Source: Chlorobiaceae bacterium | Lineage (GTDB): Bacteria; Bacteroidota; Chlorobiia; Chlorobiales; Chlorobiaceae | DNA length: 64,000 nucleotides | Direction: 5' to 3' | NCBI GenBank assembly: GCA_013334865.1 | Contig: JAAXWS010000005.1 | Location: 1 to 64,000 of the forward strand | Shown: positions 1-12,061 of the stretch, piece after piece | How positions within the stretch are numbered: position 1 is the first letter of the stretch | How the letters are laid out: each line of letters begins with the position of its first letter | Translations under genes and position numbers: made by a program | The notes under the pieces: generated by a model | Told to the model about the DNA's origin: nothing | What the model saw: only the letters and a program-made list of their open reading frames with translations | Databases searched by the model: none

Positions 1-232
1 GACGGCTCAGCCATCGGAACACGGTGAGCACCTGTTGCCTTTGGCGGGTTCATGCCTTGTTGCCGGAAATACTCACTCGGTCTCAGGTGATACCCGCACG
101 AATCTTCCCGGTCACACTTTCCGACCGCATCGGCAATCTCCTCACCCGTCAAGGTCTCGATGTAGCGGACAAACCTGCGTTGCCTGCAAGCCGGGCAGAT
201 GCGTTTGCCGCCGCCCTGCTGAATCCGGCTGG
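1..232 (-). pseudogene. N-terminal zinc-ribbon fragment of a DUF6371/primase-like protein (partial)
   Basis: On the minus strand an open frame runs from about 232 to the window edge. It shows CPAC (forward 185-196), then RRFVRYIETLTGEE and CDREDSCGYH. This CPxC...CxRExxCGYH pattern resembles the N-terminal zinc ribbon of DUF6371/primase-like proteins of Bacteroidetes/Chlorobi mobile DNA, recognised from memory. Upstream the frame continues through the repeat that starts at 236 and then meets a TGA, with no ATG, GTG or TTG in between. The native N-terminus therefore appears to have been replaced at the repeat junction. The C-terminal part lies outside the window. I infer a 5'-truncated remnant; the family call is moderate. 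Confidence 0.5.
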
Positions 233-885
233 GACGGGGACGTAAGTGAATGAGGGTACTTATTTCAGAAAACAGGCGTCATCGGGCCTCGAACAGTTAG
301 GTATGGGTTGGATTGGCGTGAAGAGAAGATGCCGTCACGACAAGTCGGGACGGCGCTCCCGGGATAAATAGGCGAGAGGGAATGGATGGGGGGGATGGAT
401 TGCCACGGCCTTCGGCCTCGCAATGACGAGAGAAAATAGGCGGCAAGGCCTGACCTTGGAAAATCTTCTTGTTAAGGATATAGTATGAGGGATGTAAGTG
501 ACTGAGGAAAGAAATGCTGGTTCGGATGTGTGCGAGGTGAACGTAAGTGATGAAGGGGGGGACGGGGACGTAAGTGAATGAGGGTACTTATCTCAGAAAA
601 CAGGCGTCATCGGGCCTCGAACAGTTGGGTATGGGTTGGATTGGCGTGAAGAGACGATGCCGTTACGACAAGTCGGGACGGCGCTCCCGGGATAAATAGG
701 CGAGAGGGAATGGATGGGGGGGATGGATTGCCACGGCCTTCGGCCTCGCAATGACGAGAGAAAATAGGCAGCAAGGCCTGACCTTGGAAAATCTTCTTGT
801 TAAGGATATAGTATGAGGGATGTAAGTGACTGAGGAAAGAAATGCTGGTTCGGATGTGTGCGAGGTGAACGTAACTGAATAAGGG
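233..885 (+). repeat. two tandem ~328-bp composite repeat units
   Basis: Two nearly identical units begin at 236 and 564 with GGGGACGTAAGTGAATGAGG. Each then has a block containing ATCGGGCCTCGAACAGTT, a GCGCTCCCGGGATAAATAGG module, and a palindromic GGATTGCCACGGCCTTCGGC...CGCAATGACG module. Each ends in degenerate copies of the leading motif (near 489-513 and 538-556 in unit 1, and 817-840 and 868-885 in unit 2). A third, shortened copy is at 4607-4838. No coding frame here looks real. Confidence 0.85.
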
Positions 886-889
886 TAGA

Positions 890-1364
890 AGCCACGGGGA
901 GGATCGTTCCGCGCTCCCTGTGCCTGTCCTGCCATTGTCTTGCCGTTCAGGCATTGGCAGGCGAGTCGGTTTTCTGATGGTAGCTACGGCGTCTGGTACG
1001 GATCGGATTCGGTCGAGACGACGGTTTATGAATCGGCCTGTCACTGGTACCGGGGCTTGCTCCGAGATGCATGTTTCGAACGAATGACGGTGATTGCCGA
1101 GCGTAAGGTGTACTTGGTGGCATGCATGGCCGCACTACTGGATTTCCGAAAATCGACTGATGAAAACACCCGGACCTTTTGCATCTTTCGGACTACGCGT
1201 TTTGCCAGTCGGTGGGAGCGAGGATTCACCGTGAAGGCCACCCCGGTCTGCTGATGCAATCGGTGCGACGACCCGAGGGCGAAAACGTAGCCATCTTCAA
1301 TACGGCTGTGCTTTCCAACCCGAGACATAACTGCCAGCTGACCTATAGGCTGCAGGGCGGGTAA
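890..1364 (+). pseudogene. RES-domain toxin remnant (5'-truncated, frameshifted)
   Basis: The frame from about 898 to 1160 encodes [18 protein letters not shown] and [13 protein letters not shown], the conserved RES-domain core (NAD-degrading toxins of RES-Xre systems). After about 1160 the matching frame shifts: [32 protein letters not shown] and the natural-looking end [11 protein letters not shown] lie in another frame that stops at 1362-1364. The shift falls in the A-rich stretch around 1155-1170. The N-terminal third is missing and the degenerate repeat end at 868-885 abuts it. No Xre/DUF2384 antitoxin gene remains next to it. The toxin is therefore very likely inactive. Confidence 0.65.
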
Positions 1365-1428
1365 ATTGGGGGCGGAGTCGGGGTTCACCCCAATCTGGTC
1401 GGGAAGTTGAAACGGGAGGTGCAAGAGC

Positions 1429-1605
1429 ATGCATGCCGTCGGATTGTTCGAGGTCAAGCAGGAAGATCTGTACCTGAAAGGCTATGAGACGGCAGTAGAA
1501 ATGACTCGGGGATTAGCGGAATATTTCCAGCTTACAACCCTGTCCGGGTATGGCAATTTCTCGAGGTCTTGTGTTTGTCATTACAATTTTCTACGTACCT
1601 TGTGA
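1429..1605 (+). CDS. small hypothetical protein (58 aa)
   Basis: A short frame starts with ATG at 1429, with a good Shine-Dalgarno (GGGAGGT, 1414-1420) eight bases upstream, and ends at TGA 1603-1605. The product begins MHAVGLFEVKQEDLYLKGYE. I do not recognise it. It lies between the broken RES gene and the zeta-like gene, so it may be the end of a decayed gene or a small partner of the kinase. The ribosome-binding site is the main argument for it. Confidence 0.3.
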   Translation: MHAVGLFEVKQEDLYLKGYETAVEMTRGLAEYFQLTTLSGYGNFSRSCVCHYNFLRTL

Positions 1606-1669
1606 AGGAACAGCTTCGCCAGGCTCTGTCGCATGAGTTTCCCCTCATTCTGTTACTTCATGGGCGCGT

Positions 1670-2182
1670 TTGAAGAAGATCATCATCATAGCTGGGCCAA
1701 ATGGTGCCGGTAAAACCACGTTTGCAAAGCGGTTTTTTCGTGATGAAGCGGGCAGCATTTTTCTGAATGCTGACGAGATCGCCGAAAGCCTTGGTGATGT
1801 TGTCGAGGGGCGCGATGTTAAGGCCGGCAGGATTATGCTTGAACGAATGGATGAGCATAGCCGTAACCATAAGAGCATTATCTTCGAAACCACATTGGCT
1901 GCGCGGATATACGTCGATAAAATTCATGCATGGCATCAATCCGGATATCTGGTCAAGCTCTTGTTTCTGTCCCTGGGTTCTGCAGATCTCGCAGTAGCTC
2001 GGGTTGCCCAGAGGGTTATAGAGGGAGGTCACTCGATTCCTGAAGACATTATCCGGCGGCGTTTCCTGGCCGGGTATGACAATTTTCGGAATCTCTACAG
2101 CTCTATTGTAGATGTGTGGGCATTGTATGATGCCTCTACAATCCCACCAACTCTAATCGATTATTCTCATGATAAAGACTAA
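1670..2182 (+). CDS. zeta-toxin-like AAA/P-loop kinase
   Basis: The 170-aa product starts at TTG 1670; no ATG or GTG is usable in this frame upstream. It opens with a P-loop, GPNGAGKTTFAKRF (residues 9-22), followed by FLNADEIAESLG (31-42) and IIFETTLA (about 69-76). This order is typical of the zeta-toxin/UNAG-kinase-like group, whose toxic members phosphorylate peptidoglycan sugar precursors. A small frame overlaps its 3' end by 14 bp, as in compact toxin-antitoxin-like operons. No good Shine-Dalgarno precedes the TTG. Whether it is a toxin or a housekeeping small-molecule kinase cannot be told from sequence alone. Confidence 0.7.
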   Translation: MKKIIIIAGPNGAGKTTFAKRFFRDEAGSIFLNADEIAESLGDVVEGRDVKAGRIMLERMDEHSRNHKSIIFETTLAARIYVDKIHAWHQSGYLVKLLFLSLGSADLAVARVAQRVIEGGHSIPEDIIRRRFLAGYDNFRNLYSSIVDVWALYDASTIPPTLIDYSHDKD

Positions 2183-2414
2183 GCGGGTAAGCCTTGGAGC
2201 CCTCAAAGATCCTGATCTGCTTGCGGCCACGAAGGCCATGTCAAAGGTCAGGAAGGTGGTGGAAGATCGTGCGATTGCTGCGGGCTCTTCTGTCATTACC
2301 ATGAAGAATGGGCGTATTGTCTGGGTTAGTGCGTCCCAACTCCTTCGCAAAAGAATGATTGCCAGGTGGGGCAGTGTGATGAAACGGGGAGTTCGCATCA
2401 AGGTTGAGAAATGA
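2169..2414 (+). CDS. small basic protein overlapping the zeta-like kinase gene
   Basis: This 81-aa frame begins with ATG 14 bp before the end of the zeta-like gene, so the two are probably translationally coupled. The protein is basic and contains GALKDPDLLAATKAMSKVRK, then SSVITMKNGRIVWVSASQLL and the Arg/Lys-rich end KRMIARWGSVMKRGVRIKVE. I do not recognise a named family. Small partners in this position are usual beside zeta-like kinases, so an antitoxin or accessory role is an inference from context. A 20-mer repeat starts 16 bp after its stop codon. Confidence 0.55.
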   Translation: MIKTKRVSLGALKDPDLLAATKAMSKVRKVVEDRAIAAGSSVITMKNGRIVWVSASQLLRKRMIARWGSVMKRGVRIKVEK

Positions 2415-2430
2415 TTCTGAGAGTGGGGAC

Positions 2431-2770
2431 GGGGACGTAAGTGAATGAGGGTACTTATTTCAGGGCAAGGAAAGCTTTATCGGGCATCAAATATTTGACC
2501 CTTGATGTTGGTATTGCACTCCATCGCGATGGCGACGCGCCCCAGGCACCTGTATTGATGGATATGTGTTGGATAGGGGCAAAGGGAAGAGGGACGGCAC
2601 CTGCGGCGCCATGGCTGAGCTGGAGCTCGGCGCTCCCAGGGGGTATCTCCGCGAAAGTGATTAGTGGATAACGGAGCATAAGGGCGAGCATCGCGAAACA
2701 ATCCATGCGTATTTCAGTAAAGATGGATTGCCACGTCGCTTCGCAACTCGCAATGACGACAGAATATATG
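2431..2770 (+). repeat. composite dispersed repeat (20-mer plus 185-bp module plus ATTGCGAG palindrome)
   Basis: The stretch between the gene ending at 2414 and the next gene holds GGGGACGTAAGTGAATGAGG at 2431, then a module of about 185 bp (2456-2640). That module is almost identical to 6776-6958 and ends in CTCGGCGCTCCC. An imperfect GGATTGCCACGTCGCTTCGC...CGCAATGACG palindrome lies near 2724-2758. Bases 2771-2966 show no repeat or gene that I could identify. Confidence 0.8.
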
Positions 2771-2966
2771 ATCAAGTCAGACAGGCTGACAAGGGGGATA
2801 GTGGTCGGATGGGGATGTCCTGCGAACTGGTGGGAAGTGGATGATCGTCGTGCGTGCCAGGAACAACGTCGTTGAGGTGCCGCTCGTGCGGAGGCGCTGC
2901 TGCGATCGTTCGCAGGCAATCTGTACATTGATGCATGGATGAGTCATTCGAAACAAAGGGGGGGCT

Positions 2967-4280
2967 ATGGTTGTTTATGAACTTCGTGTAACGCTGTTGG
3001 ACGCAGCGCCTCCGGTATGGCGTCGGGTCAGGGTCCCGGGGGAGTACCGGCTCTCCATGCTCCATTCAGTGCTGCAGATGGTCATGGGCTGGGAGAATCG
3101 TCATCTGCATGAGTTCGTCGCGGGTGAGGACGGTCAGCAGCGGAGATATGGGGTGGCCGATGGAGACGATGCCGGTGCGGAGGTGCTGGACGAGCGGCAG
3201 GAGCGTCTGTCGGGACTGGTGCGCGAGCTTGGTGACCGGTTCTTGTATGTCTATGATTTCGGGGATGAGTGGAGGCATGAAGTCGTTCTGGAGTCGGTGG
3301 CCGAGACCGATGGCGAGGGCGATGATGCGCTGCTGCGATGCCTTGATGGCGCTGGGGCCTGCCCGCCGGAGGATTGCGGCGGTGTGCGGGGGTATTGCCT
3401 GCTGCTCGACGGCCTTCGTGACCTCACCGACAGGGAAGAGCATAATGCTGCGGTCGAATTGCTCGGCGAAGGGTTTGACCCGGATGCTTTCGACTGCGGC
3501 GATTTCAATGAGGCCGTCGAGCTGGCGTTTTCCGGCGATGCAGATGAGGATGATGATCCGGAGGAGCAGGAGCAGCTAGCACTGGTGCTGGAGCTTCAGA
3601 AGTTCCTCCAGTCGGATACGATGCCCGAAAGCGCGATGTCGGTCATCGAGCTGGATGGATTGTTTGCCGCCCTTGCGGTATATCCGGTGACGGTCCAGCC
3701 AAGTGCCTGGCTGCCGCTGGTCTGGGATATGACGGGGAAGGGCGAGCAGCCGAAGTTCGCTTCCAGGGCTGAGGCCGAGGGGGTGATGGGGCTGATGTTC
3801 CGGTATTATAACACCGTGGTGCAGCAGCTGGCCGGCGAACCGCTGGAGTATATCCCGCTGTTCGAGGAGGTAGCTGCGGATGACGAGGAGGAGCTGATGC
3901 TGGCGGCTGAGGATTGGGCCGTCGGGTTCATGTTCGGTGCGATGATCGATCCGGAGGTGTGGCAGCGGACGCGTGAGGATGACGAAGGGTTTGGGGTGAT
4001 GATGCCATTCCTGGTCTTGTCTGGCATGCTGGATGATGAGGTTGATGACCGCTCTCTGGCGCAGATGAAGGAAGAATATCTGGATCTTCTCGAGGAGAGG
4101 GTGAGGGAGTTGGGGGAGTTCTGGCGCCCATGGAGGCAGGCGTATCTTGCACGTCAAGGCGCGGGCCGGACCCTCAGGGCTGAGCCCCTCACCGGCCGCA
4201 ACGACCCGTGCCCGTGCGGCAGCGGGAAGAAATACAAACAGTGCTGCGGGCGGTGTGTGTACGGGGACGTAAGTGAATAA
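2967..4280 (+). CDS. pRiA4b ORF-3-like / UPF0149 / SEC-C multidomain protein
   Basis: The 437-aa protein joins three modules. Residues 1 to about 190 resemble the pRiA4b ORF-3 domain ([46 protein letters not shown]). Residues about 215-390 resemble a YgfB/UPF0149 region ([24 protein letters not shown]). Residues about 415-432 form a SEC-C zinc motif ([17 protein letters not shown]). The function is unknown; SEC-C motifs bind zinc and often mediate protein contacts. The last codons (VYGDVSE, then TAA) lie inside a dispersed 20-mer repeat starting at 4263, so the repeat supplies the stop codon. The start is ATG 2967. Confidence 0.8.
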
Positions 4281-4606
4281 GGGAAGTAACATTAAAACCA
4301 TAACAGCCCAGAGCAGTTGTCAAGAGTTTGAATCGCCAAGGCGATAATCATTATCAATTTTTTCACGCATCAACTTATTACTCCGGCAGCAATCGGTCGC
4401 AAATGCCACAACAACGAGAAATTTGGCTAAATCCCTAATTTTTTATGTTTTATCGGTGATCCCCGGCTTGAAATCCGGGGCAATTTATAAGAGTTTTAAT
4501 CGCCGAAGGAATAACAGCCTGCCGTAATTCCGGAACGTCATGAACGCACGTCTATGACTTCAGCGTCAAGGTTGAAATAGTGATGGAGATGTTGATGGAC
4601 ATCCAA
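4281..4606. other. AT-richer intergenic stretch with a short GC hairpin
   Basis: No coding frame looks real here. The composition is visibly more AT-rich than the flanks. A direct repeat of about 20 bp with mismatches (GAGTTTGAATCGCC at about 4325, GAGTTTTAATCGCC at about 4490) is present. A hairpin CCCCGG...CCGGGG at 4461-4480 resembles the REP-type hairpins near 46.7 kb. Confidence 0.5.
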
Positions 4607-4838
4607 TAGTGAATAAGGGCACTTATTTCAGACAGAAGGTGTCATCGGGCCTCGAACAGTTGGGTATGGGTTGGAGTGAAGAGAAGATGCCGTTACGACA
4701 AGTCGGGACGGCGCTCCCGGGATAAATAGGCGAGAGGGAATGGATGGGGGGGATGGATTGCCACGGCCTTCGGCCTCGCAATGACGATGAGGAATGGGCC
4801 ATTGCGAGCGAGGCGAAGCAATCCTGGGGTTGCCTGAG
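4607..4838 (+). repeat. third copy of the composite repeat seen at 236-885, shortened
   Basis: After a truncated leading motif (TAGTGAATAAGGG) this copy matches the 236 and 564 units through the ATCGGGCCTCGAACAGTT block, the GCGCTCCCGGGATAAATAGG module and the ATTGCGAG palindrome. It then continues into a second palindrome form, CATTGCGAGCGAGGCGAAGC (about 4801-4820), which abuts the hipA stop codon. Confidence 0.8.
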
Positions 4839-4847
4839 GATTGCGGC

Positions 4848-6173
4848 TCATGACAGCCGACGGCAACGCTCTTGAACGCCTTCGGTAATTGTTGTGAGCA
4901 CCTGTTCCGGGAATCCGGCAGGGAGCGCGTTGGCGGTTTGTTCAAGGACTTGGGGCGTCAGCCGGACCATATCGCCTATGATAGCTTCACTGTCAGACAG
5001 AGCCAGGCCGCAATCGGTTCCGGTTTTCATGAAATGACGGCGCATGATGGCATCCCACCGGTAGATCCGGTTTTTGCCCCAGAGTGCCATTGCCATCTTG
5101 ACCTTCTGTTTCGGCAGCATTTTAGGGCCGGAGCCGATGACCGGGTATGCTGAAAGAACGTCATAGAGCGGCGTGAGGTGGAAGGTTCCTCCCGGACCGA
5201 GAACGATACTGAAGTTTTTTGCGTGACCGTCAATGGCGCAGAGCAGGTAAAAGGCAACCTGTGCCCGGAAGAACATCTTCCGGTCTTGACTCGCCCGGTC
5301 CGAGCCGAGCAGGAGCGTCATGATGGCCTTGATTCCAGGGCCGCCATCGCTCTCGTATTTATTCCATGGAGGAGTGCCTGTCGCCTGACAAAGGTCCTCC
5401 TGCGGGAGACGAATGATCCATGATCCGTCTCGGGAGAGCTTGCGGTCGAAGCGTTCGACAATCAGGGCTTTGGTGTCGCCGAATGTTGCAACGGTCGCGT
5501 TGGCTGTCGGGAGCCCATATGCCTGAAGTAACCTGCCGCATAACCACTCCTTTTCGATCGAGCTGGTCATGTCGAGATTGTATTGACCGATATGGCCGAG
5601 GGGAAGCTTGAAGATATGGGTTGTCGGCGTGGGGCCATGGGGAATCATCCACTGGCCGTTATGGAAAAGCAGGGCCGTTTTCTCTTGTGCGCCGGCAAGG
5701 GAAATCCTGAATTCGTCTCCCTCACGTCCTGTTTTGCCGAAGTCTCGGCCCTGAACGCTCCTTTTGAGCAGCGCATCGATGTCCTCTTGGTCGATGGGTG
5801 TCGCCCGTATCTTGTGAACGTCTTCGCCAGTGCTGTCAGGCGTAAGCAGTTGGATTGCGCCAACGCAATCACGCCCGGTTTCCGACAGCAGGGAGAATGG
5901 ATCGATGCCGCTGGTGGCAAAACGGTTCTGTATTCTTTTCCTGATGGCGTCGTTGTTTGGCAGGAGGTTGTCGAAGTATGCGTACACAGGCTCACCGCTG
6001 TATTTTTCTTTTCTGAGCGGCATCGACAGGGAGATCGGCCTCGAAAGTGGGGATGCGATCCAGGTGGAGTCATAGCTGAACTCGTGCATGCCATTTGCCC
6101 TGACGGTCCAGTTGCCGACTGGCTCCCCGTTCATCATGAGCCTGAGCGTCTTTGTTTTCGAAGGCCTGCCCAT
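4848..6173 (-). CDS. hipA: HipA serine/threonine kinase toxin
   Basis: The 441-aa product matches HipA of the Escherichia coli type in length and motifs: FRISLAGAQEKTALLFHNG (the region of the autophosphorylated serine and the P-loop-like segment), PTPTTHIFKLPLG, ALIVERFDRK, YESDGGPGIKAIM, and the catalytic and metal-binding stretch IDGHAKNFSIVL...LTPLYDVLSAYP. HipA phosphorylates glutamyl-tRNA synthetase and drives growth arrest or persistence in E. coli. Its ATG at 6173 overlaps the hipB stop codon (TAATG), so the two are coupled; a GTG at 6179 is an alternative start. All expected kinase motifs are visible, so it is probably active. Confidence 0.93.
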   Translation of the reverse strand: MGRPSKTKTLRLMMNGEPVGNWTVRANGMHEFSYDSTWIASPLSRPISLSMPLRKEKYSGEPVYAYFDNLLPNNDAIRKRIQNRFATSGIDPFSLLSETGRDCVGAIQLLTPDSTGEDVHKIRATPIDQEDIDALLKRSVQGRDFGKTGREGDEFRISLAGAQEKTALLFHNGQWMIPHGPTPTTHIFKLPLGHIGQYNLDMTSSIEKEWLCGRLLQAYGLPTANATVATFGDTKALIVERFDRKLSRDGSWIIRLPQEDLCQATGTPPWNKYESDGGPGIKAIMTLLLGSDRASQDRKMFFRAQVAFYLLCAIDGHAKNFSIVLGPGGTFHLTPLYDVLSAYPVIGSGPKMLPKQKVKMAMALWGKNRIYRWDAIMRRHFMKTGTDCGLALSDSEAIIGDMVRLTPQVLEQTANALPAGFPEQVLTTITEGVQERCRRLS

Positions 6174-6415
6174 TACCACTCGGCCTGAGTTGATGAGCCG
6201 TCTCCTTTCTGTCGGAGAACCAGTTCGAGGTTCAGTGCGGACAACAGCTTGAAGAGGTTTTTGACAGAGCAGCGTTCCGGATGGTTTTCGAAGGCCGACA
6301 CCATCTTTTGAGTCATGCCGACCCGTTCAGCCGTTTCCAGCTGTGAGAGCTTCTGTTCTTTTCTATGTCCCTGCAGCAGCAACGCGAGTTGCATCGGGGT
6401 GCGTATGGCATTCAT
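6173..6415 (-). CDS. hipB: HipB antitoxin, Xre-type DNA-binding protein
   Basis: The 80-aa protein has a helix-turn-helix of the Xre/cro class (LLQGHRKEQKLSQLETAERV followed by GMTQKMVSAFE, residues about 13-44) and a C-terminal strand-like LELVLRQKG. HipB binds and neutralises HipA and represses the operon. The gene directly precedes hipA with a one-base overlap. Upstream lie hip-type operators (6454-6471 and 6508-6525). The start is ATG 6415. Confidence 0.88.
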   Translation of the reverse strand: MNAIRTPMQLALLLQGHRKEQKLSQLETAERVGMTQKMVSAFENHPERCSVKNLFKLLSALNLELVLRQKGDGSSTQAEW

Positions 6416-6453
6416 ACTGCGGTGATCAATGGTTGGATGTTTTATTGACCGAC

Positions 6454-6471
6454 TATCTGAAGAGATGGATA
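6454..6471 (-). promoter_or_regulatory. candidate second hip operator
   Basis: TATCT-N8-GGATA has the E. coli hip operator spacing with one half-site mismatch. It lies 54 bp closer to hipB than the perfect site, and HipB probably binds both. Confidence 0.5.
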
Positions 6472-6477
6472 AGCGGT

Positions 6478-6501
6478 TTTTATGCCTTTTGTTGCATAAA
6501 A
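6478..6501. promoter_or_regulatory. inverted repeat between the two hip operators
   Basis: TTTTATGC and GCATAAAA form perfect 8-bp arms around an 8-bp spacer. The site lies between the two TATCC-type sites. It could be another repressor site or part of the promoter region. Confidence 0.4.
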
Positions 6502-6507
6502 CAAATA

Positions 6508-6525
6508 TATCCTTTACGCGGGATA
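6508..6525 (-). promoter_or_regulatory. hip operator TATCC-N8-GGATA
   Basis: TATCC and GGATA, separated by eight bases (TTTACGCG), exactly match the published E. coli HipB operator consensus. The site lies about 93 bp upstream of the hipB start, where autorepression would be expected. Confidence 0.7.
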
Positions 6526-6595
6526 ACGCGCATGACTTTTTCGGTGGTATGGGGACGTGCGGGGGATAGGTACGGCGGGAGATAGGGCGGGAGAT

Positions 6596-6745
6596 AGGGA
6601 CGTAAGTGAATGAGGGAAGATACACTGTTTCCGGTCGTCAGGGTGTCTGACGTTGGGCGGAGGGTATCCACCTGGCGTTTTAGGATTGCCTGGTTGAGCC
6701 GGGCAGTAAATATGCTCAGGCGGATGGTGGCGGATTTAGTGGGAG
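6596..6745 (+). repeat. left-end derivative of the Y1-transposase element
   Basis: After GGGACGTAAGTGAATGAGGG this block matches the first ~150 bp of the full element at 8359 (TTTCCGGTCGT, GGTATCCACCTGGCGTTTTA, TAAATATGCTCAGGCGGATG, GGCGGATTTAGTG). It then stops and is followed directly by another repeat copy. No right end is present. Confidence 0.8.
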
Positions 6746-6749
6746 GGGC

Positions 6750-6975
6750 GCGGAGACGTAAGTGAATAAGGGTACTTATTTCAGGGCAAGGAAAGCTTTA
6801 TCGGGCATCAAACATTTGGCCCTTGGTGTTGGTATTGCACTCCATCGCGATGGCGACACGCCCCGGGCACCTGTATTGATGGATATGTGTTGGATCGGGG
6901 CAAAGGGAAGAGGGACGGCACCTGCGGCGCCATGGCTGAGCTGGAGCTCGGCGCTCCCTGGATAAATAGGCAAGA
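6750..6975 (+). repeat. second copy of the 185-bp module behind a 20-mer
   Basis: Starting with GGAGACGTAAGTGAATAAGG, the block 6776-6958 is nearly identical to 2456-2640. It continues into a CTCCCTGGATAAATAGGCAA module related to the one in the 236 and 564 units. Bases 6976-7115 contain no gene that I can support. Confidence 0.8.
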
Positions 6976-7115
6976 GGCTGTGTCAGTTTTGCTACTGAGA
7001 CAGCCTCTTTTGTTTTGAGGAAAGAGACTGGGGGTGGGGGGATTTCACCTCCAGCCGACTTACCCTCTCGGGCATCTCTCTCTTGAGGAGGATTTCGTTG
7101 TTTTACTTTTGCGTC

Positions 7116-7160
7116 ATAATCGTGCATATTGAATATTAATATTTCCATATACACGATTAT
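7116..7160. promoter_or_regulatory. AT-rich inverted repeat reaching the start codon of the DUF4143 ATPase gene
   Basis: ATAATCGTG (7116-7124) and CACGATTAT (7152-7160) are perfect inverted arms around an AT-rich core containing AATATTAATATT. The right arm ends inside the ATG at 7159. It may be a repressor site or an mRNA hairpin hiding the start codon. Confidence 0.45.
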
Positions 7161-8328
7161 GGGCGTTAAATATCTTGATCGTACGACAATCAGCGACGTC
7201 AGCGAAGGGCTCCGGCACTTTCCGGTGACGGCGATTGTCGGTCCTCGCCAGTGCGGAAAATCCACACTGATCCGTCATTTGCTGAAGTATGAAGGTGCCC
7301 TTGTCTACCTTGATCTTGAGCGGCCATCTGACCTTCGCAAACTTGAGGATCCTGAATGGTTCCTTTCCGGGCAGCGTGGCAAACTGGTCTGTATTGATGA
7401 GGTGCAGCGCAAACCTGAGCTTTTCCCCCTGATTCGCAGCCTGGTGGACGAGTGGGGAGGAAACGGCCATTTTCTGGTTCTCGGCTCGGCGTCACGTGAC
7501 CTCCTCAGGCAGAGTTCCGAGTCGCTCGCAGGAAGGATTACCTATAAGCGCCTTACACCGTTTTTATGGGAAGAGGTCAGAACGCGTGTAACGATTGAGG
7601 TGTACCTCTCTCGTGGCGGCTTCCCCAGAAGCCTCCTTGAGGATGATGATTCTCTTTCATTTGGCTGGCGCGAGGATTTCATCACCAGCTTCCTTGAGCG
7701 CGACTTGCGGCAATGGAGCGGTTTCTCGCCGGCAACGATGCGCCGACTCTGGCAGATGCTGGCGCACAACAATGCACAGATACTCAACCTGTCGACAATC
7801 GGCGGTTCTCTTGGCATAAGCCATACCACAGTCAGGAACTACATTGATCTTTTTGAGGAGACCTTTATGGTGACCTCCCTCTCGCCGCTTCTTGCCAATA
7901 CCGGCAAGCGGCTGATCAAGAGCCCGAAGGTCTATCTGAGCGATACTGGTATAGTGGCGGCACTCCTGGGCCTTGAGGATTTCAACCGGATAGCCGGCCA
8001 TCCGGTGTTTGGTTCGCTCTGGGAAACGCTGGTGCTGGTCAATATCCAGGGGATGTTTCCCCGCGCCGATCTCTCCTATTACCGGACGTCACATGGCGCA
8101 GAAATCGATATCGTCATGGAGCGGTCGGGCAAGCGGATCGCCATTGAATGCAAGGCGTCTGCCGCACCTGCGCTCAGCAGGGGGAACACCTCGGCAATTG
8201 CAGATATCGCCCCGCTGCACACCTTCGTCGTGGCTCCTGTGCAGGAGTCGTATCCGCTCCGTGAAGGAGTCAGCGTCGTCGGGCTCTCGGAACTCATCAG
8301 GCAGATCAAGATGCTGCTTTTCTCTTGA
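7159..8328 (+). CDS. AAA-family ATPase with DUF4143 domain
   Basis: The 389-aa protein has an N-terminal AAA module: Walker A GPRQCGKSTLI, Walker B KLVCIDEVQR and sensor-like FLVLGSASRDLLRQ. The C-terminal DUF4143 region contains a winged-helix-like segment and a nuclease-like SYYRTSHGAEIDIVMERSGK...AIECKAS strand set, which resembles the restriction-endonuclease fold. Such proteins are widespread in accessory regions and their substrate is unknown. I chose ATG 7159 because family members start just before the conserved YLDR segment; a TTG at 7129 would add ten residues. A repeat-bounded transposase element begins 30 bp after the stop. Confidence 0.85.
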   Translation: MGVKYLDRTTISDVSEGLRHFPVTAIVGPRQCGKSTLIRHLLKYEGALVYLDLERPSDLRKLEDPEWFLSGQRGKLVCIDEVQRKPELFPLIRSLVDEWGGNGHFLVLGSASRDLLRQSSESLAGRITYKRLTPFLWEEVRTRVTIEVYLSRGGFPRSLLEDDDSLSFGWREDFITSFLERDLRQWSGFSPATMRRLWQMLAHNNAQILNLSTIGGSLGISHTTVRNYIDLFEETFMVTSLSPLLANTGKRLIKSPKVYLSDTGIVAALLGLEDFNRIAGHPVFGSLWETLVLVNIQGMFPRADLSYYRTSHGAEIDIVMERSGKRIAIECKASAAPALSRGNTSAIADIAPLHTFVVAPVQESYPLREGVSVVGLSELIRQIKMLLFS

Positions 8329-8358
8329 ACGTGAGGGTCGAGGGATCGGAAGGGGAGC

Positions 8359-9582
8359 GGGGACGTAAGTGAATGAGGGAAGGGGCGCCGTTTCCGGTCG
8401 TGAGGGGGGCTGACGTTGGGCGGTGGGTATCCACCTGGCGTTTTAGGATTGCCTGGTTGAGATGGGCAGTAAATATGCTCAGGCGGATGGTGGCGGATTT
8501 AGTGAGGCGCTGAGGTCATTTTTTGAACATCTGGCTTACCGCTGACCTCGAAACGCCGAGTAGCCTTGCTGCATCTGCATGGTTCAGGCCGAGCTCCATC
8601 ACGAACCGTGTGGCAAGTATTCGTCTGGCTGCAGTGCATGCCTCGCTTCGGGAGCCTCCTTGCAGTGCAGCCGGTGTGAGGCCTGAGGCCCCACAGAATT
8701 CTGCAAGCATTGAGGCCGCTTCGTTCTGCCTTGATACGGAAGGTACCATGGTTTTCACTGTGCCCGCAACGTCTCCAAGCACGGATTCGGCGAACTCGCC
8801 GCTGCCCAATATCCGCTCATCGCTGAACTGGCGTTCGCCTCGCTGCCGCATTGACAGTACCTCTGACCATCCTCCGGCTGAACGGATCAGCCCGCCGCCG
8901 GTCAGTTCAGGTTGCCGCCCCAGCAGGCTCTGCTCCTGCATGAATGCCAGGTAGGCCTTGCGTGCGGAACCGGCTGTCTGGCCGAAATGCCGGAGTGCGT
9001 AGTCGGTGTCCTGCCAGGTCAGCTCGACCCTGCCCATCAGGGCCGCGTGGCCGCTCCATGGATATTGTTCGAGTTCCGCAAGAGAGCCGACAAGGCCGGC
9101 TCGAAGGGGATTCAGGTGGATATAGGCGACCAGTTTCAGCAGATAGGATTCAGCCTCGCACAGGATCGATTTGTAGCGGTTCTGGAACAGGTGTCCGCAG
9201 CGCTGATGGCGCCGGTTGAAAGCTACTGAATATCCTGTCAGCACCTTGCGCATGAACGTTGGTAGCCCGGCATTGCCGCTTCTGAGCAGCAGGTGGGCGT
9301 GGTTTGTCATCAGCGACCATGCGGCGATCATCGTGCCGGTTGCGGATGCGGCCTTCGCCACCCGTTCGACAAAGTCCTTTCGATCTTCGTCATCAACCAC
9401 GATCGTGCCGCGTTCGATTCCCCGGACCATCACATGATGCAACGCTCCCGGTGTGTCGAGTCGTGCTCCTCTGGGCATGGGTGCTCCTTGTCTGTTTGCT
9501 TGTAATCCTGATGCTCCATGTTGACGCTTTACAGGTAAGATAAGTGTTTTCTTTGTTGCTTTCCTTATTCACTTACGTCCCC
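8359..9582. mobile_element. Y1-transposase element bounded by inverted 20-mers
   Basis: The left end GGGGACGTAAGTGAATGAGG (8359) and the right end, the reverse complement of GGGGACGTAAGTGAATAAGG (ending at 9582), bracket one transposase gene. About 150 bp of non-coding DNA lie at the left and about 100 bp at the right. Internally deleted relatives lie at 9706-9944 and 10398-10636, and a lone left end is at 6596-6745, so this is a multi-copy family. A second partial right end (CTTACGTCCCCGATTTCTAC) follows directly at 9589. I saw no target duplication, as expected for a HUH-type enzyme. Confidence 0.8.
8516..9478 (-). CDS. REP-associated Y1 (HUH) transposase with C-terminal helix-turn-helix
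   Basis: The 320-aa protein starts MPRGARLDTPGALHHVMVRG, a typical start for REP-associated tyrosine transposases. It has the HUH metal motif TNHAHLLL and the catalytic tyrosine helix LVAYIHLNPLRAG. Beyond about residue 190 is an extra domain ending in a DnaA/Trp-repressor-like helix-turn-helix (LGLNHADAARLLGVSRSAVS). These enzymes nick single-stranded DNA through a 5'-phosphotyrosine. All catalytic residues are visible and the frame is intact, so the enzyme is probably functional. Confidence 0.92.
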   Translation of the reverse strand: MPRGARLDTPGALHHVMVRGIERGTIVVDDEDRKDFVERVAKAASATGTMIAAWSLMTNHAHLLLRSGNAGLPTFMRKVLTGYSVAFNRRHQRCGHLFQNRYKSILCEAESYLLKLVAYIHLNPLRAGLVGSLAELEQYPWSGHAALMGRVELTWQDTDYALRHFGQTAGSARKAYLAFMQEQSLLGRQPELTGGGLIRSAGGWSEVLSMRQRGERQFSDERILGSGEFAESVLGDVAGTVKTMVPSVSRQNEAASMLAEFCGASGLTPAALQGGSRSEACTAARRILATRFVMELGLNHADAARLLGVSRSAVSQMFKK

Positions 9583-9611
9583 GATTTCTACTTACGTCCC
9601 CGATTTCTACG

Positions 9612-9950
9612 ACGGATAGCGTGGGTCGGCAACTGGCGTCGGCAGCTTTACCCAAACGGGCCCGCATGAGCGGCATGAACCGAGGCGACGGTACGGAATC
9701 GGGTAGGGGACGTAAGTGAATAAGGGAAGCAGCTCCCTTTCCGGTCGTCAGGATGTCTGACGTAGGGCGGTGGATATCCACCTGGTGTTTTAGAATTGCC
9801 CGGTTGTGCCCGGCAGTAATTACGCTCAGGCAGCTGGTGGAGGATTTAGTGCGGTGGTGATGTCATTTCCTGAACTATTTTGATGCTTCGCAGGAGGTAA
9901 GATGAGTATTTTCTTTGTTGCTTTCCTTATTCACTTACGTCCCCGATTTC
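9612..9950 (+). repeat. 339-bp duplicated segment, upstream copy (xre 3' end plus mini-element)
   Basis: This segment matches 10304-10642 over its whole 339 bp with a few differences. It begins with the last ~32 codons of the xre gene (ACGGATAGCGTGGGTCGG...) and ends just after the right end of the first mini-element. The upstream copy is therefore an orphaned gene tail. Confidence 0.85.
9706..9944. mobile_element. 239-bp mini-element 1 (internally deleted derivative of the Y1 element)
   Basis: It has both terminal 20-mers in inverted orientation. About 165 bp of left end are homologous to 8359-8523, including the last codons of the transposase, and are joined to a right end of about 70 bp. 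Inside the right end, AGGAGGTAAG-ATG (ATG at 9902) opens an outward frame of 36 codons that ends with TAA at 10010-10012, short of the xre gene. Confidence 0.8.
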
Positions 9951-9992
9951 GCCCCCCCCGATTTTCCCCGATTTTCGCGTCCCCGATTTTCC
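9941..9992. repeat. short tandem CCCCGATTTT array
   Basis: CCCCGATTTC is followed by CCCCGATTTT, CCCCGATTTTCGCGT and CCCCGATTTT. These look like local amplification of the sequence that normally flanks the right end of the mini-element. Confidence 0.6.
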
Positions 9993-10005
9993 TGATATTT
10001 TGCGG

Positions 10006-10027
10006 AATGTAATTATGGTGTTACATT
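10006..10027. promoter_or_regulatory. inverted repeat upstream of xre, candidate operator
   Basis: AATGTAA and TTACATT are perfect arms around TTATGGTG. The site is 31 bp before the xre start codon, a usual place for autoregulation by Xre proteins. Confidence 0.4.
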
Positions 10028-10057
10028 AAGTTCTCTTGGGATATATAGAGATTACAA

Positions 10058-10411
10058 ATGCCAACACCTCATCTGCCGTCGCCTGCAGTCCGGAAAGTGC
10101 TGCGCAAGCTTGGCTCCAATATTCACGAGGCACGGGTGCGCCGCAAGCTTCCCATGAGTGTCGTTGCAGAACGTGCCGCGACCTCCCGGCCAACCCTCTC
10201 ACGCCTCGAGAAGGGCGATCCTTCCGTGAGCATCGGTATTTATGCGGCGGTCCTGCAGGCCCTTGGGTTGCTGGATGACCTTGCCGGGCTTGCAGATCCC
10301 TCAACGGATAGCGTGGGTCGGCAACTGGCGTCGGCAGCTTTACCCAAACGGGCCCGCATGAGCGGCATGAACCGAGGCGACGGTAAGGAATCGGGTAGGG
10401 GACGTAAGTGA
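10058..10411 (+). CDS. Xre-family transcriptional regulator (orphan antitoxin-like)
   Basis: The 117-aa product carries a helix-turn-helix (NIHEARVRRKLPMSVVAERA then ATSRPTLSRLEKGDPSVS, residues about 21-58) followed by IYAAVLQALGLLDDLAGLAD. This is the arrangement of antitoxins usually followed by a HipA-like kinase. No kinase follows. The last residues GRGRK and the TGA come from the left 20-mer of mini-element 2, so the native C-terminus and any partner gene have been cut off. An inverted repeat at 10006-10027 may be its operator. The promoter lies between mini-element 1 and the gene. Confidence 0.75.
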   Translation: MPTPHLPSPAVRKVLRKLGSNIHEARVRRKLPMSVVAERAATSRPTLSRLEKGDPSVSIGIYAAVLQALGLLDDLAGLADPSTDSVGRQLASAALPKRARMSGMNRGDGKESGRGRK

Positions 10412-10642
10412 AGAAGGGAAGTTGCCCCCTTTCCGGTCGTCAGGATGTCTGACGTAGGGCGGTGGATATCCACCTGGTGTTTTAGAATTGCCCGGTTGTG
10501 CCCGGCAGTAATTACGCTCAAGCAGCTGGTGGAGGATTTAGTGCGGTGGTGATGTCATTTCCTGAACTATTTTGATGCTTTGCAGGAGGTAAAATGAGTG
10601 TTTTCTTTGTTTCTTTCCTTATTCACTTACGTCCCCGATTTC
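10304..10642 (+). repeat. 339-bp duplicated segment, downstream copy
   Basis: This copy is continuous with the intact xre reading frame. Together with 9612-9950 it gives an A-B-A layout with a period of 692 bp. Confidence 0.85.
10398..10636. mobile_element. 239-bp mini-element 2
   Basis: It has the same length and structure as mini-element 1: left 20-mer (variant GTGAAGAAGG), left-end homology, and right 20-mer ending at 10636. It ends 19 bp before the PAP2 start codon. Its right end carries AGGAGGTAAA-ATG pointing outward toward that gene. Confidence 0.8.
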
Positions 10643-10659
10643 TTCTTATATCAGTATGA
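10594..10659 (+). CDS. 21-aa leader frame opened inside mini-element 2
   Basis: A strong Shine-Dalgarno (AGGAGG, 10584-10589) precedes ATG 10594. The frame reads MSVFFVSFLIHLRPRF... through the right 20-mer and ends at TGA 10657-10659, which overlaps the PAP2 ATG as ATGA. PAP2 itself has no visible Shine-Dalgarno, so translation of this leader may deliver ribosomes to it. Whether the peptide itself matters is unknown. Confidence 0.45.
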   Translation: MSVFFVSFLIHLRPRFLLISV

Positions 10660-11204
10660 AGACCAGATCGTTTATCAAGGCCTCGCTTGTAGCTTTTGTC
10701 ATTGCCGTGTGGCCTGCGGGCGGGGCGAATGCGAGTGGCGTCATCGAGACGTCGGGAACAGTGCTGAGTGTGGCGTTGCCGGTTGTCGCCGGGGGATTGA
10801 CGGTGAGCAAGGAGGATGCGCCGGGGCGGTTGCAGCTGGTGCAAGCGTTGGCTACGACCGTCGGCGTGACCTACGGGCTGAAGTACACGGTCCATGAGAC
10901 GCGGCCGAACGGTGGGGAGCATTCGTTCCCTTCGGCGCATACGTCGGTGTCGTTCGCTGCGGCGGATTTCATCGGGCGGCGCTACGGGTGGGACTATGGC
11001 ATTCCGGCTTATCTTGCCGCGGGTTACGTCGGCTACACCAGGGTTGAGGCAAAGGCGCACTATACGCGTGACGTGCTTGCCGGCGCGGCGATCGGTATTC
11101 TCGGCAGTGCGTTGTTCACCACACCTTTTGGCGGCGGGGGGATGAAGGTGTCTGCAATGCCGACAGGGGAGGGGGTTGCCATGCGGTTATCCTGTACGTG
11201 GTAA
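10656..11204 (+). CDS. PAP2-family phosphatase
   Basis: The 182-aa protein has an N-terminal hydrophobic signal-like segment (SLVAFVIAVWPAGGANA) and the three phosphatase motifs: KYTVHETRPNGG, FPSAHTSVSF, and RVEAKAHYTRDVLAG with the catalytic histidine. Members remove phosphate from lipid phosphates or undecaprenyl pyrophosphate at the membrane or in the periplasm. It is shorter than many PAP2 proteins and has few clear membrane helices, so a periplasmic form is likely. Mini-element 2 stands 19 bp upstream in place of a native leader. The next gene begins 17 bp downstream, so the two may be cotranscribed. Confidence 0.85.
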   Translation: MKTRSFIKASLVAFVIAVWPAGGANASGVIETSGTVLSVALPVVAGGLTVSKEDAPGRLQLVQALATTVGVTYGLKYTVHETRPNGGEHSFPSAHTSVSFAAADFIGRRYGWDYGIPAYLAAGYVGYTRVEAKAHYTRDVLAGAAIGILGSALFTTPFGGGGMKVSAMPTGEGVAMRLSCTW

Positions 11205-11221
11205 GTTGCTGAACCGGTAGC

Positions 11222-11983
11222 ATGCTGATTCTTAACAAGATATTGCCGTTGCTGGTGCTGCCGCCGGGCATTTGCCTGGTGCTTGTTGCTGTCGGCCTTT
11301 TGTGGCGCCGGAAGGGGCTGGCGTGGGCTGGCGTTTTCTTGCTCTTTGTGTTGAGCGTTCCGGTGGTGGGGGATTCGCTGATGCGCGGCGTGGAGTGGCC
11401 TTACGACCGCATTCCTGTCAATCGGGTCCGGAGGGCAGATGCTGTGGTTGTCTTGAGCGGGATGATCGAGCATACCAAGGGAGCTCCTTTAGGGGAGTGG
11501 GGTGAGGCTGCGGACCGGTTCGAGGGCGGGCTCGACCTGTTCAGGGCAGGAAAAGCGCCTTTGCTGGTTTTTACCTATGGCCAGCTGCCCTGGCAGAAGG
11601 GCATGGCCCCGGAGGGGGAGCTCCTCGCAAAGCGTGCGATGTCGCTCGGCATTCCCGCGAAGTCCATCCGGCTCACCGGGCAGGGCGGGAATACCGCGGA
11701 AGAGGCGGTCGAGGTGGCTCGGTTGTTTGGCATTGGCAAGGGATCCGGGAAAAAGATCATCCTGGTGACGAGCGCATTCCACATGAGGCGGGCAGCCATG
11801 TTGTTCACTCGGGCCGGGTTCCTGGTCGACCCGTATCCTGTCGATTTCCGGACAGCTGAAGGAAAGCGGCCGACCATCCTGAGCTTGTTGCCGGATGCTG
11901 AAGCCATGGACGAATCCGCCACGGCAATTCGCGAGGTGATCGGGACCGGTTTTTATCTGGCGACGGGCTGGTTGGGAAGGTAA
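11222..11983 (+). CDS. ElyC/SanA/YdcF (DUF218) family membrane protein
   Basis: The 253-aa product begins with two hydrophobic helices (LPLLVLPPGICLVLVAVGLL and AGVFLLFVLSVPVVGDSL). A DUF218 domain follows: ADAVVVLSGM, PLLVFTYGQ, TGQGGNTAEEA and IILVTSAFHMRRAAMLF. ElyC of E. coli, with the same layout and length, acts in envelope and peptidoglycan precursor homeostasis. Linkage to a PAP2 phosphatase fits an envelope-lipid role, which is inference. Confidence 0.85.
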   Translation: MLILNKILPLLVLPPGICLVLVAVGLLWRRKGLAWAGVFLLFVLSVPVVGDSLMRGVEWPYDRIPVNRVRRADAVVVLSGMIEHTKGAPLGEWGEAADRFEGGLDLFRAGKAPLLVFTYGQLPWQKGMAPEGELLAKRAMSLGIPAKSIRLTGQGGNTAEEAVEVARLFGIGKGSGKKIILVTSAFHMRRAAMLFTRAGFLVDPYPVDFRTAEGKRPTILSLLPDAEAMDESATAIREVIGTGFYLATGWLGR

Positions 11984-12061
11984 GGGGCAGAGGGAGGCGC
12001 CTGCGGCCGTGAGAGAGCTATTTGTTTTGGAGTGAATTTCAACCTGGAAAGGTGAACCAAT

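Follow-up and report, generated by a model that had tools for sequence, protein, structure and literature searches.

Y1 transposases associated with terminal inverted repeats (TIRs) form a class that was named by Di Nocera et al. (2013; PMC3733652) as TIRtrons and TIRYTs. That paper gives a TIR motif GGGGWSAS for the majority of cases and reports the TIR families as singles, dimers and clusters. Most TIRYTs fall within subclass 2.1 of the TnpA-Y1 proteins, which is present in approximately 15% of the strains sampled and for which no REPs are reported (Quentin et al., 2018; PMC6006769). REPINs have been described as non-autonomous RAYT units, and the RAYTs themselves are held to be unable to move (Bertels & Rainey, 2011; PMC3116915).

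The locus described here lies in a stretch of 64,000 nucleotides (G000:C31:1-64000; hereafter the window) from a draft genome of the Chlorobium group (2.42 Mb, 44 contigs). An earlier note on this DNA had stated that HUH Y1 enzymes lack TIRs, which is true for IS200/IS605 but false for the TIRYT branch (PMC3733652; PMC6006769), and had regarded such a transposase class with TIRs as rarely described, a view that is overtaken by the naming of the class in 2013. The window element belongs to this known TIRtron/TIRYT kind, subclass 2.1. The available text of the two papers (PMC3733652; PMC6006769) does not describe internal-deletion mini-elements, border tests, a test for target-site duplication or the reiteration of flank and tip. 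As far as the papers show, the results presented below on borders, arms, target-site duplication, mini-elements and reiteration are additions to the open-access literature. TIRYT genes are widespread, and the results bear on whether they move and on what substrate.

The full-length TIRtron and related ends in the window

The resident element consists of inverted 24-mers enclosing the gene for a Y1 (HUH) transposase (Table 1), and its alignment with the relative in G006 terminates exactly at both outer TIR ends. The 15-mer GGGGACGTAAGTGAA has ten exact copies in the 2.42 Mb genome, all of them inside C31:236-10636, and its reversed control has none. With up to three mismatches, 17 TIR matches are present in the window compared with 1.2 expected. 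Copies elsewhere in the same genome are at most 55% identical to the window element, which is thus of low copy number with diverged copies. The inverted ends that the earlier note had described as common to the full element and both mini-elements were located, those of the mini-elements at 9706-9731/9919-9944 and 10398-10421/10613-10636. They are near-identical (19-20 of 20 positions match) but are not the strictly identical 20-mer that had been proposed. A search of window positions 1-12000 against Rfam gave no match.

The transposase matches Pfam Y1_Tnp (E = 1.9e-9) and, over residues 284-318, HTH_31 (E = 2.7e-4) and HTH_23 (E = 1e-3), both below their curated cut-offs; the match to NCBIfam REP_Tyr_transpos is likewise below its cut-off. 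The AlphaFold model (pLDDT of 82) shows helices at the C-terminus. A PDB sequence search with the transposase gave no match. The best Foldseek match of the model is 4er8 (E. coli TnpA-REP with a REP hairpin; E = 4e-6), followed by ISDra2 and IS608 TnpA. An alignment of 28 homologues (Chlorobiaceae, deltaproteobacteria and Aegiribacteria) shows no variation at H60, H62, F98 and Y119-IHLNP, and Q99 is conserved in at least 90%. The middle residue of the HUH motif is A in the window protein, whereas the published subclass 2.1 table has V, Y or F. The dN/dS ratio of the window/G006 gene pair is 0.16, and the gene is under purifying selection.

Table 1. Features of the TIRtron locus (window coordinates)
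Feature	Position	Strand	Remarks
328-bp tandem duplication	231..886	+	98%; each unit opens with a TIR, followed by a second kind of subterminal end (TACTTATTTCAG)
TIR with second-type end	2431..2640	+	95% to 6746-6961
Solo TIR with 5'-side-like end	4263..4300	+	39 nt, 85% complementary to 9545-9583
Solo transposase-3'-side end	6596..6745	+	6597-6741 92% identical to 8360-8504
TIR with second-type end	6752..6961	+	95% match of 6746-6961 with 2431..2640
Full TIRtron, 1,224 bp	8359..9582	- (transposase gene strand)	89% nucleotide identity to G006:C55:13192-14416
TIR, transposase-3' side	8359..8382	+	GGGGACGTAAGTGAATGAGGGAAG
TIRYT transposase, 320 aa	8516..9478	-	Y1_Tnp domain (HUH H60/H62, Y119 in YIHLNP) and putative C-terminal HTH
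TIR, transposase-5' side	9559..9582	-	GGGGACGTAAGTGAATAAGGAAAG as read on the - strand
Stutter: second TIR tip and flank copy	9583..9606	-	GAAATCGGGGACGTAAGT repeated, period 19
Duplicated segment, copy 1: hipB 3' end (94 bp) and mini-element 1	9612..9950	+	97% over 339 bp to 10304-10642
Mini-element 1, 239 bp, TIR to TIR	9706..9944	+	arms pair over 25/26 bp
Degenerate reiteration of CCCCGATTTT adjoining mini-element 1	9945..9990	.	read directly from the sequence
hipB-like HTH gene	10058..10411	+	homology to relatives ends at 10386, 11 bp ahead of mini-element 2
Duplicated segment, copy 2: hipB 3' end and mini-element 2	10304..10642	+	97% over 339 bp
Mini-element 2, 239 bp	10398..10636	+	96% identical to mini-element 1

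Further ends lie to the left of the element. The solo left end claimed previously was found where it had been placed. TIR ends of a second type lie at 236, 564, 2431 and 6752. At 4263 there is also a TIR whose end is of the 5' type. A subterminal end related to the second kind is present in the TIRtron of G005, and the two units at 231-886 are likely to be relics of a second, G005-like TIRtron. A repeat with a self-complementary core, ATTGCCACGGCCTTCGGCCTCGCAA, occurs at 399-423, 727-751 and 4757-4781.

Borders, tips and arms of the elements

In five pairs of TIRtrons that lie in different contexts, the DNA alignment ends on either side within 0-3 bp of the outer tip of the TIR. For the window/G006 pair the offsets are 0, 0, 0 and 0 at 89% identity; the remaining pairs are G028a/G072, G072/G007, G064/G028b and G007/G064. 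At orthologous sites (G062/G064 and G068/G030) the alignment continues into the flanks. No alignment that places the borders elsewhere was encountered and, as had been claimed from the window, the outer TIR ends appear to be the element borders.

Two loci were found in an unoccupied state. The two genes that flank the G005 element are direct neighbours, with no element between them, in at least seven genomes (G000, G008, G007, G019, G014, G004 and G013), the unoccupied locus in the window's own genome being at C20:108867-108995. The element shared by G068, G030 and G084 lies between def and a tRNA gene, and this locus is unoccupied in G109, G094, G099 and G027. The earlier note had looked to empty sites for the exact ends and the target. 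Comparison of the joined flanks of three TIRtrons, and of the flanks of the G005 element, the G072 and G079 mini-elements and the window elements, gave empties at the level of the locus, or breakpoints with homology on one side, but no nucleotide-exact empty site, as the intergenic stretches at the empty loci have diverged too far for the exact join to be read.

A TIR was detectable in 67 of 92 distinct full-length relatives. Across the 51 two-ended elements, the tip RGGGACG is at least 96% constant at positions 2-7, and it is seen at 102 ends. Over arm positions 8-22, identity is 83% for the two ends of a single element and 43% for ends of different elements, a difference reached in none of 5,000 permutations. 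Each TIR has two parts, the constant tip RGGGACG and about 16 nt of private arm, the latter common only to the two ends of one element. Target-site duplications, including those of 3-6 bp, are no more frequent at the 51 two-ended full elements than in shuffles, and insertion appears to produce no target duplication. At 36 of 110 ends, the dinucleotide directly outside the border is TA, compared with a background of 4% (p = 3e-23). Because both ends show this enrichment, TA might be a remnant of the TIR and not the target.

The fold of the left 165 bp, proposed earlier as a place to look for subterminal hairpins, revealed only modest structure, with z-scores of -0.95 for the full copy, -1.9 and -2.5 for the mini-elements and -3.9 for the solo end. 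REP-like hairpins in this region were considered as recognition sites and rejected, the structure being modest and decaying in the full copy. As single-stranded DNA, the whole of mini-element 1 folds at z = -6.7, as expected from the inverted repeat alone; the TIR arm by itself is not self-complementary.

Mini-elements and reiterated ends

The window mini-elements retain approximately 170 bp of the transposase-3' side and 50-68 bp of the 5' side. Both are present and TIR-bounded, as the earlier note had stated, but they are not independent insertions, because they occupy the two copies of one duplicated segment (339 bp, 97% identical), of which 94 bp are flank. They were also described as clean internal deletions. 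Both ends are indeed kept, but the left ends match those of the resident copy at only 82-83% of positions (about 17% different), which indicates that the mini-elements derive from an older relative and not by simple deletion of the resident copy. The pair thus goes back to one insertion followed by duplication. In relatives, hipB is directly followed by hipA; the hipB-like gene at 10058-10411 has no adjoining hipA. A separate HipA of 443 residues is encoded at 4848-6179; immediately upstream of it, in the ORF at 6173-6625, lies a hipB-like gene of its own.

Mini-elements, on whose existence elsewhere the earlier note had made its reading depend, are found in other genomes. Two in G072:C81 align over 394 nt and are 78% identical exactly from TIR to TIR, with unrelated flanks, and the first of them has 255 bp that are 98.8% identical to the full element of G072. 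G079 has a 241-bp mini-element (C82:18717-18957), and 119 nt at one of its ends are similar to the transposase-3' side of the G079 TIRtron. Its 79% identical relative in G021:C10 shares the borders and lies between unrelated flanks, and a truncated relative is present in G022:C9. Compact hairpin TIR dimers are present in G018. A tip-pattern search of 86 genomes for mini-elements of 194-255 bp found matching arms only in G079 and G018; most of the candidates look like chance, the backwards-read control being equally frequent. The mini-elements of the window, G072 and G079/G021 share the traits of MITEs in being short, lacking a transposase and having TIRs related to a resident element. They differ in dispersal: the window pair shares its flank, and the G072 pair and the G079/G021 relatives are at unrelated sites.

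Clustered full-length copies were also seen. Several diverged TIRYT genes lie within 25 kb of each other in G007:C59 (L121 and L122), and two TIRtrons that are 97% identical lie in tandem in G014:C2 (L120). For a complete Desulfobacterales chromosome (G111), recent expansion of copies was considered and rejected, the two elements being only 68% alike. Many TIRYT genes are situated where contigs end, suggesting that assemblies are broken by related copies.

Short tandem reiteration of the flank together with the TIR tip, scored as an exact repeat of 10 nt or more with a period of up to 45, occurs at ten of 111 ends, compared with 0.2% of control flank positions and 0.6% of controls with a tip-like start. 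The window examples are listed in Table 1. The longest stutter array seen has four successive TIR tips with GGGTTCT-like spacers (G008:C13, L117, 2869-2951). Homology to relatives is lost on one side only at the ends of mini-element 2 (where hipA is missing), at the G079 mini-element (beside a conserved gene) and at the solo ends of G062:C41 and G074:C61. At 1741-1751 of L327 (G079:C82), only 10 bp separate the G079 mini-element from the middle of this gene, which five relatives (L331-L335) have uninterrupted; its upstream part is absent beside the mini-element. Possible readings of the reiteration and the one-sided loss are slippage or re-ligation at nicks, and deletions adjoining the ends.

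Interpretation and comparison with known systems

The reading that we favour, with a probability of roughly 0.7, is that of a low-copy TIRtron with a TIRYT-type Y1 transposase and TIRs, accompanied by non-autonomous mini-elements and solo ends of the same family and moving, or having moved, by the following proposed mechanism. The two TIRs would pair into one long stem in single-stranded DNA, the transposase would read the private arm and Tyr119 would cut next to the constant tip. The cut strand would then be joined to a new TA-flanked site, and the same transposase may move the mini-elements in trans. In the window, a mini-element would have come to lie beside the hipB-like gene and later have been copied with 94 bp of flank by local duplication. 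The proposal in the earlier note, that an autonomous Y1 element is accompanied by TIR-bounded derivatives with internal deletions, finds support: the TIR borders hold, and mini-elements are found in G072 and G079/G021. Counted against the favoured reading are the age of most copies in the window's own genome (at most 55% identical), the single event plus duplication behind the window mini-elements and the lack of a nucleotide-exact empty site.

The TIRs could instead be binding or regulatory sites of a domesticated TIRYT, with the gene, mini-elements and solo ends spread passively by recombination or duplication between repeats. Such a history would fit the low copy number and the long-standing divergence between copies of a genome, as well as the spread of the window mini-elements by a duplication that includes flank; moreover, Bertels & Rainey (2011; PMC3116915) argue that RAYTs cannot move themselves, and a similar proposal exists for single-copy RAYTs. 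We nevertheless consider it unlikely, as full elements and mini-elements occur in unrelated contexts with homology that stops at the TIR tips, which flank-including duplication fails to explain, and each element has kept its pair of private arms matched.

Long TIRs and a MITE-like size are typical of DDE elements. On these general grounds the mini-elements could be mobile but moved by an unrelated DDE-type transposase that recognizes the same inverted repeats; the missing 3-6 bp target duplication at the 51 two-ended elements, the Y1 transposase as the sole gene between the TIRs of full elements and a TIR arm private to each element make this highly improbable. That the window mini-elements and clustered ends are an artefact of assembly might be suspected in a draft genome of 44 contigs, but this deserves hardly any weight given that the duplicated copies differ by 3% and that independent mini-elements exist in other genomes.

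More broadly, and only tentatively, subclass 2.1 enzymes of the RAYT type (class 2) may not be domesticated: they may move their own gene in the manner of an insertion sequence and spawn MITEs via a single-stranded stem of paired TIRs, not via subterminal hairpins, with flank-and-tip reiteration and one-sided loss as by-products. The defined borders, the constant tip with its private arm, the lack of target duplication and the compact mini-elements provide exact substrates for a cleavage or excision assay and are relevant to the claim that enzymes of the RAYT kind have lost the ability to move themselves.

Comparison with known systems places the locus as follows. MITEs usually have a target-site duplication, which is absent from the full elements tested here. 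IS200/IS605 elements (subclass 1.1) also insert without target duplication, as do the TIRtrons here, but have a short core protein with a Y---Q motif and subterminal hairpins without TIRs, whereas the window element encodes a 320-residue protein with YIHLNP and has TIRs and modest subterminal structure. The PATEs of Haloquadratum (PMC3119063) are likewise transposase-free and without target duplication, with end structures as in IS605-type elements; they have palindromes near their termini and no terminal inverted repeats, whereas the window mini-elements have TIRs. SMR-A, also from Haloquadratum (PMC3119063), is similarly short, with TIRs and no target duplication; its transposase is not known, nor is a related full element with a transposase, and the likeness to the mini-elements is one of description.

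REPINs (PMC3116915) are likewise non-autonomous, consist of two inverted repeats and have been ascribed to a Y1 transposase that is single in its genome. They are, however, inverted pairs of REP palindromes in high copy number, whereas the window mini-elements are rare and keep approximately 170 and 66 bp of the two sides. The GT[AG]G tag of the REP hairpins of RAYTs and REPtrons is absent from the window TIR tip, a comparison made on the tip only. The closest match is the TIRtron/TIRYT class, with which the window element shares a RAYT-like Y1 transposase and GGGG-starting TIRs in place of REP hairpins. The C-terminal HTH of subclass 2.1 is of the DnaA_C, HTH_23 or HTH_28 kind; the window protein has a putative C-terminal HTH, seen in the sub-threshold matches and the modelled helices. 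The tip RGGGACG found here differs from the published GGGGWSAS, to which GGGGACGT fits at six of eight positions. The subclass 2.1 signature of FQ and YIHLNP is present as F98-Q99 and Y119-IHLNP, and a gene flanked by TIRs and low-copy, diverged copies, as in TIRYTs of subclass 2.1, are both found for the window element.
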